Assembly (NCBI GenBank): GCA_021851345.1 | Contig: JAJZEQ010000231.1 | Span: forward strand, 1-41,237 | DNA from: Pseudomonadota bacterium | GTDB lineage: Bacteria > Pseudomonadota > Gammaproteobacteria > Burkholderiales > Gallionellaceae | Reading direction: 5' to 3' | Length of the DNA: 41,237 nucleotides | In this document: piece after piece, positions 2,372-39,542 of the stretch | How positions within the stretch are numbered: the first letter of the stretch is position 1 | Layout of the letters: the number at the start of each line of letters is the position of its first letter | Made by a program: the position numbers and the translations under genes | The notes under the pieces: generated by a model | The model's database searches: none | What the model saw: only the letters and a program-made list of their open reading frames with translations | Told to the model about the DNA's origin: nothing

Positions 2372-2407
2372 CCCTCTCGCTGCAATGGAGAGGGTTAGGG
2401 AGAGGGT
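2372..2407. repeat. Palindromic CCCTCTC...GAGAGGG dispersed repeat
   Basis: CCCTCTCGCTGCAATGGAGAGGGTTAGGGAGAGGG in the fcl-rmlA intergenic region. Confidence 0.65.
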
Positions 2408-4727: not shown

Positions 4728-4792
4728 TTATTGATACTTTTATAATTCATGACACCCTTGCCGTCACTGCGAACGAGGTGCGGAGATTCAAA

Positions 4793-4900
4793 ATGCCGTC
4801 ATTGAGAACGAAGTGAAGCAATCCAGTAAAACAAAGGCGCCTTTGTTTAAACCATCTGGATTGCCGCGTCGGCTGCGCCTTCTCGCAATGACGGGGCATT
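4793..4900. repeat. Large dispersed palindromic repeat (CCGTCATTGNGAACGAAGTGAAGCAATCCAG...CTGGATTGCCGCG...CTCGCAATGACGG)
   Basis: Inverted arms 4793-4826 and 4856-4900; nested perfect 20-bp palindrome AAACAAAGGCGCCTTTGTTT at 4829-4848. Confidence 0.75.
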
Positions 4901-4931: not shown

Positions 4932-5081
4932 CTAGGTTCTAATTTCTCCTTACCGGGTGCCAAAAGATGCGTCACTGTCAACCTTGACAGGGCAGAGCGT
5001 CTGGGGCTGATCAAGTCCGCCGACGAATGGAAAACCATCCGTAACCTCAGAAACCAAATGCCGTCACTCCAAACGAAGTGA
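4932..5081 (+). pseudogene. Remnant of a HepT-like / nucleotidyltransferase-substrate-binding protein, truncated at a repeat
   Basis: One frame reads LGSNFSLPGAKRCVTVNLDRAERLGLIKSADEWKTIRNLRNQM then runs into repeat sequence (PSLQTK*). NLDRAERLGL..ADEW..IRNLRNQM resembles HepT-family C-termini. Confidence 0.5.
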
Positions 5082-5205
5082 GGGGATTCAAAATGCCGTC
5101 ACTGCGAACAAAGTGAAGCAGTCCAGCAGTTTGGTATTCTGGATTGCCGCGCCGGCTTCGCCTCTGCCGCGCTTCGCTCGCAGCTGAAGCCTTGTTGCAA
5201 TGACA
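5059..5205. repeat. Second, more degenerate copy of the CCGTCACTGCGAAC...CAGTCCAG / CTGGATTGCCGCG dispersed palindrome
   Basis: ATGCCGTCACTGCGAACAAAGTGAAGCAGTCCAG ... CTGGATTGCCGCGCCGGCTTCGCC...TTGCAATGACAAGG. Confidence 0.65.
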
Positions 5206-5210
5206 AGGTA

Positions 5211-5246
5211 CCCTCTCCCTGCGAGGTAGAGGGTTGGGGAAAGGGA
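5211..5246. repeat. CCCTCTCCC...GAGGG palindromic dispersed repeat
   Basis: CCCTCTCCCTGCGAGGTAGAGGGTTGGGGAAAGGG. Confidence 0.6.
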
Positions 5247-6528: not shown

Positions 6529-6602
6529 CCCAAGCACTTCAATGATCCAAAGAAAGGCTTCATGAGGATTAGGGTGAATTTTAGTTGGTCGCATTAGCCG
6601 TT

Positions 6603-6665
6603 CTTGCCCCTTGCCCCTTGTACCTTGTACCTTGTACCTTGTACCTTGTACCTTGTACCTTGTAC
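6603..6665. repeat. Perfect tandem heptamer array: 2x CTTGCCC + 7x CTTGTAC
   Basis: Nine contiguous 7-nt units read directly. Confidence 0.95.
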
Positions 6666-6753
6666 CTGACTTGATACTTGACTCAGCCGCAAAATTATCG
6701 TTCAATTGCTGAACACGTTCAATGCCTGAACGAAAAAGGTGAGCCGCATTGCC

Positions 6754-31388: not shown

Positions 31389-32549
31389 ATGAAAAAACTT
31401 TGTTTTGTCGCAACCATACCCGCCGTTGTTCATGCCTTTTTGCGGGGACATATTCAAGCGGCTGCAGAAAAATATCAGGTAACTGTTGTATGCAATTCTG
31501 CTGACGAGCACTTGCTTGAGGGCCTGAACGCCCGATTTGTTCTGCTGCCCATAGAGCGCAAACCATCACTCTGGAAAGACACTCTGGTCCTGTTTCAATT
31601 ATTCAGGCTGTTCCGGCGTGAACGATTCGATATAGTGCATAGCCATATGCCAAAGACCGGGTTGCTCGGGATGTTGGCCGCACGGATGGCCGGCATACCG
31701 ATACGCATCAACACCTTCCACGGCGAGGTGTGGGCAACGCGAAGCGGCGTGCGGCGTGCAGCACTCAAGCTGTTCGACAGATTGGTCGGAGCACTTGCAA
31801 CAGACATCCTGGCGGTCAGCCCATCGCAAAAGATATTCCTGGAGAGCGAGGGCGTTTTGTCGCCGGGCAAGGCAATGGTGATCGGGGCGGGTTCGATCTG
31901 TGGTATCGACGCGGCGCGATTTCATCCGGACGAGGCGATGAAGAAGTCAGTACGCCATGAATTGGCCATTGCCCGGGATGACACGGTGATTTTGTTTGTC
32001 GGACGCCTCAATCGCGACAAGGGCGTGCTGGATATGGCAGCAGCATTTGATGCGATTGCGAAAGACAACCCGGATGTGGTGCTGTTGCTGGTGGGTTCTG
32101 AGGAAGACGTGGCGTTCAGCCGTATTCAGGAAATCTGCGATGCGGTAAGTGAGCGCCTTCGGCATGTGAGTTTTACGCCTGCGCCGGAACGTTACATGGC
32201 GGCGGCAGACATATATTGCTTGCCGAGTTATCGCGAGGGGTTTGGCATGACCATTATCGAGGCGGCGGCGTGCGCAGTACCCACCGTGGCTACACGTATA
32301 TATGGCATTACAGATGCAGTGGCAGAGGGCAAAACCGGCTTGCTGTACCCGGTTGGCGATGTGGCGGCCCTGACGCAAAACCTGTTAAAGCTGATTGCAG
32401 AAAAAGACTTGCGGAAACAGATGGGAATTGCGGCCCGCCAACGAGCAATGGAACTGTTCCCCAGCGAAAAAATCATCCGCGAGACGATGATGATGTACGA
32501 CGGATTGCTTGAAGAACGCCGCAGGAAGAAAGACAAAAAACATGATTGA
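31389..32549 (+). CDS. Glycosyltransferase family 4
   Basis: FDIVHSHMPKTGLLGMLAARMAGIPIRINTFHGEVW...VILFVGRLNRDKGVLDMAAAFDAIAKDNPDVVLLLVGSEED...EGFGMTIIEAAACAVPTVATRIYGITDAV. Confidence 0.93.
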   Translation: MKKLCFVATIPAVVHAFLRGHIQAAAEKYQVTVVCNSADEHLLEGLNARFVLLPIERKPSLWKDTLVLFQLFRLFRRERFDIVHSHMPKTGLLGMLAARMAGIPIRINTFHGEVWATRSGVRRAALKLFDRLVGALATDILAVSPSQKIFLESEGVLSPGKAMVIGAGSICGIDAARFHPDEAMKKSVRHELAIARDDTVILFVGRLNRDKGVLDMAAAFDAIAKDNPDVVLLLVGSEEDVAFSRIQEICDAVSERLRHVSFTPAPERYMAAADIYCLPSYREGFGMTIIEAAACAVPTVATRIYGITDAVAEGKTGLLYPVGDVAALTQNLLKLIAEKDLRKQMGIAARQRAMELFPSEKIIRETMMMYDGLLEERRRKKDKKHD

Positions 32550-33573
32550 CCGCGACAATAGGCGCGTGCTGGTCACCGGAGGCAATGGCTTTGTAGGCCG
32601 GTCGCTGTGCGAAGAATTGCTGCATAGGGGATATCAGGTCAGGGCGGCCGTGCGCGCGCCTGGCCGGTTTCCAGCGGACATGGAAGCGGTGGCAGTCGGC
32701 GAGATTGATGGCGGGACGGATTGGGCCGATGCGCTGCGCGATGTGGATACCGTCATTCATCTCGCCGCGCGGGTACATGTGATGAAAGATTCCTCTGCCG
32801 ATCCGCTGGCGGAATTCCTCAGGGTCAATCTGCACGGCACGGAAAATCTTGCGCGGCAGGCGGCGCGCACCGGGGTCAATCGCCTGGTCTACGTGAGCTC
32901 GGTCAAGGTGAACGGGGAAAGCACCTCCGCTTCTGACACCCTCTCCCCTGGCCCCTCCCCCGTAAGCGGGATAGGGGAGCAAAATATTTTTACCGAATCG
33001 GATAATCCCAATCCACAAGACCCCTATGGTGTGTCCAAGTGGCAGGCCGAACAAGCCTTGCGGCACATCGCGCAGGAAACCGGTCTGGAGATCGTGATCG
33101 TGCGCCCGCCGCTGGTGTATGGCCCGGGCGTGAAAGGGAACTTCATCAGCCTGCTGGCCGCGATAGACAAAGGGGTGCCGTTGCCGCTAGCGGGTGCGCG
33201 CAATGCGCGTAGCCTGGTGTATGTGGGCAATCTGGTCGATGCGCTGATCGCCTGCGCGACGCATCCCGCCGCCTCCGGGCAGACCTATCTGGTTAGTGAT
33301 GGCGAGGATGTCTCGACAGCTCGGCTGGTCGAAAAGATCGCCAGCGCATTGGGACGCAACAGTCGCTCATTCTATTTTCCGCCCGTGCTGTTGCGCGCTG
33401 CGGCAACCTTGCTGGGGCGGGCAGGGCAGATGGACAGATTGTTCGGTTCGTTGCGCGTCAGCGATAAAAAAATACGCGGCGAACTGAGCTGGTCTCCGCC
33501 GTATACGCTGGAGCAGGGCTTGCGCGAAACAACCGTATGGTATTGCGCTCGCCAATCACGACGCGTTTCCTGA
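32542..33573 (+). CDS. NAD-dependent epimerase/dehydratase (UDP-glucose 4-epimerase-like SDR) with an internal repeat-derived insertion
   Basis: RVLVTGGNGFVGRSLCEELLHRGYQVRAAVR...VDTVIHLAARVHVMKDSSADPLAEFLRVNLHGTENLARQAARTGVNRLVYVSSVKVNGE...NPQDPYGVSKWQAEQAL; start ATG at 32542 overlaps the upstream stop region. Confidence 0.93.
   Translation: MIDRDNRRVLVTGGNGFVGRSLCEELLHRGYQVRAAVRAPGRFPADMEAVAVGEIDGGTDWADALRDVDTVIHLAARVHVMKDSSADPLAEFLRVNLHGTENLARQAARTGVNRLVYVSSVKVNGESTSASDTLSPGPSPVSGIGEQNIFTESDNPNPQDPYGVSKWQAEQALRHIAQETGLEIVIVRPPLVYGPGVKGNFISLLAAIDKGVPLPLAGARNARSLVYVGNLVDALIACATHPAASGQTYLVSDGEDVSTARLVEKIASALGRNSRSFYFPPVLLRAAATLLGRAGQMDRLFGSLRVSDKKIRGELSWSPPYTLEQGLRETTVWYCARQSRRVS
32926..32988. 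repeat. In-frame copy of the CCCTCTCCCC...CCCGTAAGCGGGATAGGGGAG palindromic repeat inside the CDS
   Basis: GACACCCTCTCCCCTGGCCCCTCCCCCGTAAGCGGGATAGGGGAGCAAAATATT, encoding SASDTLSPGPSPVSGIGEQNI. Confidence 0.75.
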
Positions 33574-34899: not shown

Positions 34900-34942
34900 C
34901 ATCCTTGTATATTGAAAGGCAGCCTTTAAATATACAAGGATG
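34900..34942. repeat. 43-nt near-perfect palindrome downstream of the DUF4143 ATPase gene
   Basis: CATCCTTGTATATTGAAAGGC-A-GCCTTTAAATATACAAGGATG: 21-bp arms with a single mismatch. Confidence 0.92.
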
Positions 34943-37075: not shown

Positions 37076-37164
37076 CGTAGATTGGGTTAGCCGCTTTTGG
37101 CGTAACCCGACAGCCTTTACAGATCATGTCGGGTTACGCGGTGAATCTGCTAACCCAACCTACG
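37076..37164. repeat. Nested palindromic dispersed element (GTAGRTTGGGTTAGC / GCGTAACCCGACA)
   Basis: Outer arms CGTAGATTGGGTTAGC (37076-37091) / GCTAACCCAACCTACG (37149-37164), 15/16 match; inner arms GCGTAACCCGACA (37100-37112) / TGTCGGGTTACGC (37127-37139), 13/13 match. Confidence 0.85.
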
Positions 37165-37170
37165 CTGCCC

Positions 37171-37212
37171 CTTGCCCCTTGCCCCTTGCCCCTTGCCCCT
37201 TGTACCTTGTAC
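37171..37212. repeat. Tandem heptamer array: 4x CTTGCCC + 2x CTTGTAC
   Basis: Six contiguous perfect 7-nt units. Confidence 0.95.
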
Positions 37213-37219
37213 CTGATCC

Positions 37220-38695
37220 TCAGTCCTCGATGATCTGCAAACCGATACCCAGCGCCTTCCATTGCTTCACTTCATCCAGCAACGTGGTTTCGGTGAGCGG
37301 ATTCTGGGCCAGCCAGTCCGGGTCTATGGCAAGGTGGAATTTGGTGCCGCTGAATCGCCCGCCCAAAGCCGGCAGGCTGGAGTCGCTGCGGTTGCGGTAG
37401 AACAGCACGGCCAGCCGCAGGCTCATGGCCAATATTTGATCCTCTGGATTTTTCAGCTGTTCCTGCAGTTTGCCCAGGTTGCCGCGCTGTGCCAGCGTCA
37501 GCATGCTCAGGCGTGCCTGCTCCTTTTTTGAAAAGCCCGGCATGTCGGCGTTGGCCAGAATGTAGGCAGTGTGTTTGTGATAGCCGCTGTGCGCGACACT
37601 GATGCCGATCTCGTGCAGACAGGCTGCCCAGCCGAGCAGGTGCAGCAGCGTTTCGTTGATTTCGTCGCCGAGAAATTGCCGCGCCAATGCTTGCGCCAGC
37701 TTTGTTACGCGCCCCGCCTGTTTGGCATCGACGTGGTAGCGCTGCATGAATTGCTGCACGGTCACGTCGCGCACGTCGTTGTTGTGAAAGCGTCCCCACA
37801 AATCGTACAGCACGCCCTCGCGCAGCGCGCCCAGGGCGGCGTCCATATGGGTGATGTTCAGTTCGCAAAATGCCGCGTAGAGAATGGCAAACCCCCCCGC
37901 CAGTATGGGAAGGCGATCCTGGCGCAAACCCTGCAAATCGAGCTTTTGCACATCGCCCGCATCAAGCAGACGGGCGCGCAGTTGGTCCAGCCCGCCGCGG
38001 GTGATACCGCCATTGCTGTAGCCGTTCGCTTCAAGTATTTCGGCGATGGCCCTTGCCGTGCCGGACGAGCCCAGAGCCTGCTGCCAATGCCCCTGATAGT
38101 CGGCGACTATGGTCTGCAATTCGTTGCGCGCGGCGAGTTCCGCCTGCTTGAGATTCTGTTTGGTGATCTTTCCGTCAGGGAAAAAATTCTTGCTGTAACT
38201 GACACAGCCCATGTACAGGCTTTCCAGCTTAAGCGGAACAAGACCATTGCCGATGATAAATTCGGTGGAGCCGCCGCCTATGTCCACCACCAGCCGGTTG
38301 TGTTTCGATGGCGGCAAGCCATGTGCCACGCCGAGGTAGATCAGGCGCGCTTCCTCGCGACCGGCGATGACTTCGATCGGGAATCCCAGTGTGTGCTCGG
38401 CTTGGGGGATGAAATCGGCGGCATTTTTGGCCACGCGCAATGCGTTGGTGCCGACCACGCGCACGGCCTCGCGCGGCAAGTCGCGCAGGCGTTCAGCAAA
38501 GCGCCCCAGCGCGGCAAGGGCGCGTTGCTGGGTTTCGGCGTCAAGGAATTTGTCTGGGCTGAGTCCCGCGGCCAAACGCACCGGTTCGCGCAAGCCATCC
38601 AGCATGTAAAGCTGGTCACCCTCCACCCGTGCGATCTGCAGCCTGAAGCTGTTGGAGCCGAGATCGACGGCGGCGAGGACGGATTGCTGCCGCAC
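37220..38695 (-). CDS. ppx: Exopolyphosphatase (Ppx/GppA family)
   Basis: VLAAVDLGSNSFRLQIARVEGDQLYMLDGLREPVRLAAGL...VVDIGGGSTEFIIGNGLVPLKLESLYMGCVSYSKNFF. Confidence 0.95.
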   Translation of the reverse strand: MRQQSVLAAVDLGSNSFRLQIARVEGDQLYMLDGLREPVRLAAGLSPDKFLDAETQQRALAALGRFAERLRDLPREAVRVVGTNALRVAKNAADFIPQAEHTLGFPIEVIAGREEARLIYLGVAHGLPPSKHNRLVVDIGGGSTEFIIGNGLVPLKLESLYMGCVSYSKNFFPDGKITKQNLKQAELAARNELQTIVADYQGHWQQALGSSGTARAIAEILEANGYSNGGITRGGLDQLRARLLDAGDVQKLDLQGLRQDRLPILAGGFAILYAAFCELNITHMDAALGALREGVLYDLWGRFHNNDVRDVTVQQFMQRYHVDAKQAGRVTKLAQALARQFLGDEINETLLHLLGWAACLHEIGISVAHSGYHKHTAYILANADMPGFSKKEQARLSMLTLAQRGNLGKLQEQLKNPEDQILAMSLRLAVLFYRNRSDSSLPALGGRFSGTKFHLAIDPDWLAQNPLTETTLLDEVKQWKALGIGLQIIED

Positions 38696-39474: not shown

Positions 39475-39542
39475 CACCCTCTCCTCAATCCTCTCCCGCA
39501 AGCGGGAGAGGAAGCAATCGTCCCTTCCCATTTGGGAAGGGA
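39475..39542. repeat. Two adjacent hairpins, the first a copy of the CCCTCTCC palindromic family; possible rpiA terminator
   Basis: CCTCTCCCGC-AA-GCGGGAGAGG (39490-39511) and TCCCTTCCCA-TT-TGGGAAGGGA (39521-39542). Confidence 0.8.

Follow-up and report, generated by a model that had tools for sequence, protein, structure and literature searches.

An intrastrand-triplex motif in frame within a sugar epimerase gene of a Gallionellaceae bacterium, and related insertions in other genes and lineages

That small palindromic repeats can lie in frame within protein-coding genes is already known, both from Rickettsia and from the REPs of several free-living bacteria (PMC3733652, PMC2759123). The Rickettsia palindromic elements were described in this way by Ogata (2000) and by Claverie and Ogata (2003), as cited in PMC2759123 and PMC3733652. 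REPs of the GTAG/CGTC type were found within genes of free-living bacteria, some of them repair genes or genes of tRNA synthetases, and at roughly one position of recB X. campestris has a different REP from X. oryzae (Di Nocera et al. 2013, PMC3733652). Another repeat is the G/C-rich intrastrand-triplex motif TM_ECO, formerly PIT, with the pattern CCCTCNCCC N3-6 GGGNGAGGG N3 GGGNGAGGG and at most one mismatch (Holder 2015, PMC4666352). The E. coli sequence was shown to fold as a single-strand triplex, the motif was reported to be always intergenic in E. coli MG1655, and TM elements were reported to be deletion-prone (PMC4666352). Earlier PIT work by Maher and by Hoyne is cited in the same paper, and so is earlier work in which the motif is said to have neither promoter nor terminator activity.

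Here, a family of repeats that was known from intergenic DNA and is tied to genome instability is found in frame within coding sequence across a whole genus, and the affected genes include that of cysteinyl-tRNA synthetase (CysRS), for which no second full-length copy was found. As far as the open-licence literature was searched, the triplex motif as an intragenic element, the genus-wide pattern, and the repeated hits of different elements on loops of core enzymes are new. Such repeated hits amount to natural, replicated insertion experiments, in which the landing of an element can be separated from the tolerance of the protein. Do selfish palindromes build new protein parts? The question becomes testable in free-living bacteria.

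The insert and its repeat family

The window, that is, the whole stretch of 41,237 nucleotides analysed, corresponds to contig 301 in a metagenome-assembled genome of 2.69 Mb (333 contigs, 86.5% complete), whose nearest named relative, judged from the epimerase gene, is Candidatus Gallionella acididurans (L041). The features concerned are these:

32542..33573, forward strand: gene of an extended-SDR NAD-dependent sugar epimerase/dehydratase that carries the insert, in a surface-polysaccharide cluster; catalytic Ser, Tyr and Lys retained
32935..32979, forward strand: in-frame insert encoding DTLSPGPSPVSGIGE, 45 nt or 15 codons, disordered in the predicted model
32939..32976, reverse strand: intrastrand-triplex motif of TM_ECO/PIT type, CCCTATCCC-GCTTAC-GGGGGAGGG-GCCAG-GGGAGAGGG, with one mismatch and a second loop of 5 nt
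2372..2406, forward strand: intergenic copy of the family, 2 mismatches, by covariance model and triplex-motif pattern
5211..5245, forward strand: intergenic copy of the family, 2 mismatches, by the same two means
39477..39512, reverse strand: intergenic copy of the family, 3 mismatches, by the same two means

The epimerase ORF spans 32509-33573 on the forward strand, with a probable start at ATG 32542, and it matches PF01370 with an E-value of 2.5e-40. Its product has the GxxGxxG motif, the catalytic Ser, YxxxK and the epimerase fold that mark members of the SDR family, its predicted fold is of the UDP-sugar epimerase type, and G13xxGxxG19, S119, Y162 and K166 are invariant in A3. Glycosyltransferase genes and GDP-mannose dehydratase-like and RmlD-like genes are its neighbours. 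After the catalytic Ser and before the Tyr-Lys motif, the translation reads ...KVNGE-STSASDTLSPGPSPVSGIGEQNI-FTESDNPNPQDPYGVSK, with 23 residues from VNGE to FTESD, while insert-free homologues read VNGE-xTxxxQP-F[TS]E, with about 7 loop residues, so that the net gain is 16 codons (48 nt). The preliminary description of this DNA had given the insert a length of about 63 nt (32926-32988), which takes in codons of the host loop; alignment with SDR homologues, which it had named as the way to define the boundaries, places them best at 32935-32979, and the real insert is 45-48 nt long. Its central claim, that a dispersed palindromic repeat lies in frame within an epimerase gene, is borne out by the repeat family, by the frame and by the homologue alignment alike.

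The palindromic element proper is 41 nt long (32939-32979), with the DNA CCCTCTCCCCTGGCCCCTCCCCCGTAAGCGGGATAGGGGAG translated as TLSPGPSPVSGIGE. It is identical at 37 of 41 positions to a copy on contig C149 of its own genome; the best of 20,000 shuffles matched at 25. The evidence for the element is this repeat family and not the energy of a hairpin: the insert RNA folds to -19.4 kcal/mol, a value that is weakly unusual (z -1.7) and not significant alone. By its sequence, the element is of the published TM_ECO/PIT type. With one mismatch and a second loop of 5 nt against the published 3, the window copy departs from the exact pattern in its second loop, and it agrees with the general triplex definition of the same paper (loops of 1-6 nt, one mismatch; PMC4666352). 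Several exact matches with the 3-nt loop occur in the same genome, for example the lysA and nnrD-like copies, and copies in the same epimerase loop of two other genomes (G069 and G021) have no mismatch to the motif. The three-arm architecture CCCTCNCCC-GGGNGAGGG-GGGNGAGGG, similar copy numbers and a patchy presence among close relatives are shared with TM_ECO/PIT of E. coli; unlike the copies in MG1655, which are all intergenic, about half of those here lie in frame within genes.

A covariance model built from 8 copies was weak alone (the window copy had an E-value of 0.11), and the main test was therefore made with the published motif's exact pattern. Searched without mismatch and with a second loop of 3-5 nt in 76 genomes of the genus, the full motif is exact in 64 of them, in up to 69+68 copies, and the reversed-pattern control gave 0 in every genome. 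Exact-core counts ran from 0 to 77 per genome versus 0 to 2 in the reversed control. The repeat family is not a chance effect. The covariance model gave about 35 places in the window's own genome, near pairs counted once, and these include 2372, 5211 and 39475, where the preliminary description had rightly recognised palindromes of the same type; counts near 100 obtained with the model are limited by how many candidates were scored, and they are not taken as copy numbers.

One epimerase loop as a recurrent landing site

The epimerase insertion is not a lone event: the same loop was hit repeatedly across lineages, and at least 15 genes carry inserts. Among 99 homologues, all internal inserts of 6 or more residues lie at one point, core column 127 of 318. 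The window and acididurans share an insert, their proteins being 87% identical; G069 carries TLPIPTLSPSPSPFEGEG, Candidatus Ferrigenium altingense (G021) carries TLSPSPSPARGGGE, and G011 has a decayed insert. L050 holds a different palindrome, which reads PPGPPLLKGG, and its close sister L056 has none. On a tree with the loop masked, the trait needs 5 changes, a count that cannot separate gain from loss. The window, acididurans and altingense as one clade are rejected (AU p 9e-5), while clades of the window with G069 (p 0.109) and of L020 with L022 (p 0.376) are not, so that the firm separate acquisitions are three: the window lineage, the altingense/G011 side and L050. L268, which belongs to another family, reads the same palindrome core in a different frame (SPLPQGER), with a relative, L267, at 82% identity, and by its frame and family it is probably a further acquisition. 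Of the orthologues listed from a sample of 399 genomes across the order, nearly all have the short loop. The epimerase loop is, in short, a recurrent landing site, where separate lineages of the tree hold TM elements or another palindrome.

It is to be noted that L018, L103, L106 and G391 have somewhat longer loops of non-palindromic DNA, which in the case of G391 was judged by eye. Homologues with a loop of similar length and unrelated DNA were what the preliminary description would have held against the insertion; this applies only in part, to these few somewhat longer loops, and the palindrome of the window copy stands. These few homologues show that extra length is tolerated in the loop whatever DNA it comes from. 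In L106, the SDR loop is filled by a 7-nt tandem similar to intergenic arrays of the window. The SDR homologue L296 (G391 contig C11), which has a longer non-palindromic loop, reads DAIGQTK at the site of the catalytic Tyr (Tyr to Ile).

In an AlphaFold2 model of the window epimerase built from 45 sequences (pLDDT 90, pTM 0.90), the insert, residues 132-145, is the only segment with pLDDT below 50. Between the window and acididurans, dN/dS of the epimerase is 0.23 (dN 0.075 and dS 0.328 outside the insert), and by these measures of its sequence the gene is otherwise intact and under purifying selection. The insert itself differs at 2 of 45 nt, both changes being non-synonymous, against 27% at synonymous sites. 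This is below the expectation from the synonymous rate (P 1e-4) and not clearly fewer than in the whole gene (P 0.08); given so few changes, the insert may not be drifting freely.

In-frame copies in other genes

Each copy was read in six frames and the frames were tested against Pfam and NCBIfam, with family models that span or flank the site. At least 18 of the about 35 copies in the window's genome are in frame, in 15 recognisable genes: leuS, cysS, lysA, purL, hrpA (two copies), mfd, comEC, sucB, the gene of NAD(P)H-hydrate dehydratase, and those of an MmeI-type methylase (three), a CapD-like epimerase, a transglutaminase, a peptide-binding protein, a ribonucleotide-reductase intein and the window epimerase. 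A fadB-like gene is likely an additional case. The element interrupts essential genes, such as those of two tRNA synthetases. cysS is intact with its insert and retains the KMSKS motif, and no second full-length copy turned up in the assembly; an orthologue in G061, 91% identical, is without the insert. An AlphaFold model of the cysS product with its insert, made from 7 sequences, had a pLDDT of 39.5 and was set aside as evidence. Among the relatives compared, the lysA insert is common to G061 only and the hrpA insert is absent. In other species, the sites in leuS, cysS and purL are occupied by different palindromes or, in some, by none; these palindromes are often inverted pairs that form very stable hairpins, with z down to -9.

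Several single observations may be added. The MmeI-type DNA methyltransferase gene (L193:1170-4130, contig C149 of the window's genome, G000) has three separate in-frame copies of the triplex motif. In the ribonucleotide reductase (L186, G000 contig C131:1-2000), it is the LAGLIDADG intein itself that bears an in-frame copy. At the cysS site of G013 (L222), VRPELVEGER is encoded by the hairpin CCCGTTC..GAACGGG, which has the look of one more, unrelated family of palindromes. There is also, about 800 nt downstream from the complete cysS gene, a short sequence similar to its C-terminal end (G000:C42:4859-4969).

Origin and retention of the inserts

How did the loop come to be filled? Very likely, a TM_ECO/PIT copy integrated in frame in the epimerase loop in an ancestor shared with acididurans, and such copies survive in frame in permissive loops. 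The palindrome would have entered after the catalytic Ser and ahead of the Tyr-Lys motif and would be translated as a flexible surface peptide rich in Pro, Ser and Gly; the epimerase presumably stays active despite it, because its catalytic residues are intact and it is under purifying selection. Copies are supposed to enter genes widely while selection retains only in-frame ones in structurally permissive loops, and this would be why the loops of the epimerase, leuS, cysS and purL recur as sites. The element is best read as a selfish or passive repeat, its insertions persisting only where they are in frame and the loop is permissive, in the manner of the Rickettsia palindromic elements.

Other histories can be imagined. 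If a single ancestral insertion had been followed by many precise losses, the scattered carriers would be remnants; counting changes is blind to gain versus loss, TM elements have been reported as prone to deletion (PMC4666352), and the ending QN[IV]F after the element is common to the window, acididurans, altingense and G011. This history is nevertheless quite improbable in view of the 5 changes on the tree, the rejection of window plus altingense by the AU test, the different palindrome family of L050, the other reading frame of L268, and the short loop that is the rule in the sampled orthologues, outside the genus too. Some carriers might instead have received the filled loop from other Gallionellaceae, either by horizontal transfer or through recombination of short tracts, as polysaccharide genes are often mobile, and CARAATATTTTT stands just after the element in the window, in acididurans and in altingense, whose protein is only about 65% identical to that of the window. 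The 5' junctions differ, however (STSASD-, ERTLPIP-, EST-), and so do the flanking synonymous sites, which makes transfer unlikely.

REP-like hairpins act as terminators, attenuators or mRNA-stability elements between genes, and the RNA of the insert can fold as given above, but such a role within the gene is very unlikely: a terminator-like site was looked for and none was found, there is no match in Rfam, both orientations and several frames occur across genes, and the earlier work cited in PMC4666352 is said to have seen neither promoter nor terminator activity. An assembly artefact or a decaying gene is hardly conceivable even for a fragmented and incomplete metagenome assembly, since a separate metagenome-assembled genome, that of acididurans, has the same insert at the same place at 87% protein identity, and the open frame and dN/dS argue against decay. 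We also see little chance that triplex-motif palindromes are kept in recurrent Gallionellaceae loops as useful, supplying and exchanging flexible loop peptides in core enzymes while elements replace each other.

Under the preferred reading, survival of in-frame copies in permissive loops, the parallel with Rickettsia drawn in the preliminary description holds as a way of working. In both cases small palindromic repeats lie in frame in genes and are tolerated as extra peptide, and insertion in frame with the host protein kept, which defines the Rickettsia elements, is found here as well, with protein activity probably retained. The parallel fails for the type of element, which is here the intrastrand-triplex motif; it is one of mode only. 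The Rickettsia hosts are obligate intracellular parasites, whereas these are free-living iron bacteria, and here different palindrome types recur at one site. The GTAG/CGTC REPs are similar in lying within coding regions of free-living bacteria, but no RAYT association was found for the element, and no GTAG/CGTC tetranucleotide tag was seen at the ends of the element copies examined with their flanks. None of the 30 Y1_Tnp loci examined in the genus is adjoined by a motif copy, a few short-word matches lying hundreds of bases off, and the copy-rich genome G090 has no Y1_Tnp match. Mobilisation by RAYT was considered and rejected: in 15 genomes, the Y1_Tnp loci come with inverted repeats of their own and not with the triplex-motif element. 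Copying may go through replication-associated template switching or some transposase.

The window contains other repeats as well. Arrays of a 7-nt unit (CTTGTAC and CTTGCCC variants) lie between genes at 1143-1256, 6596-6681 and 37150-37221, and a second dispersed family of 68 nt, of the TGCCGTCACTGCGAACGAAGTGAAGCAATCCAG type, has copies 87% identical at 4759-4826 and 5059-5126. At 34900-34942, also between genes, there is a nearly perfect 21-nt inverted repeat with a 1-nt loop, unlike the triplex motif.
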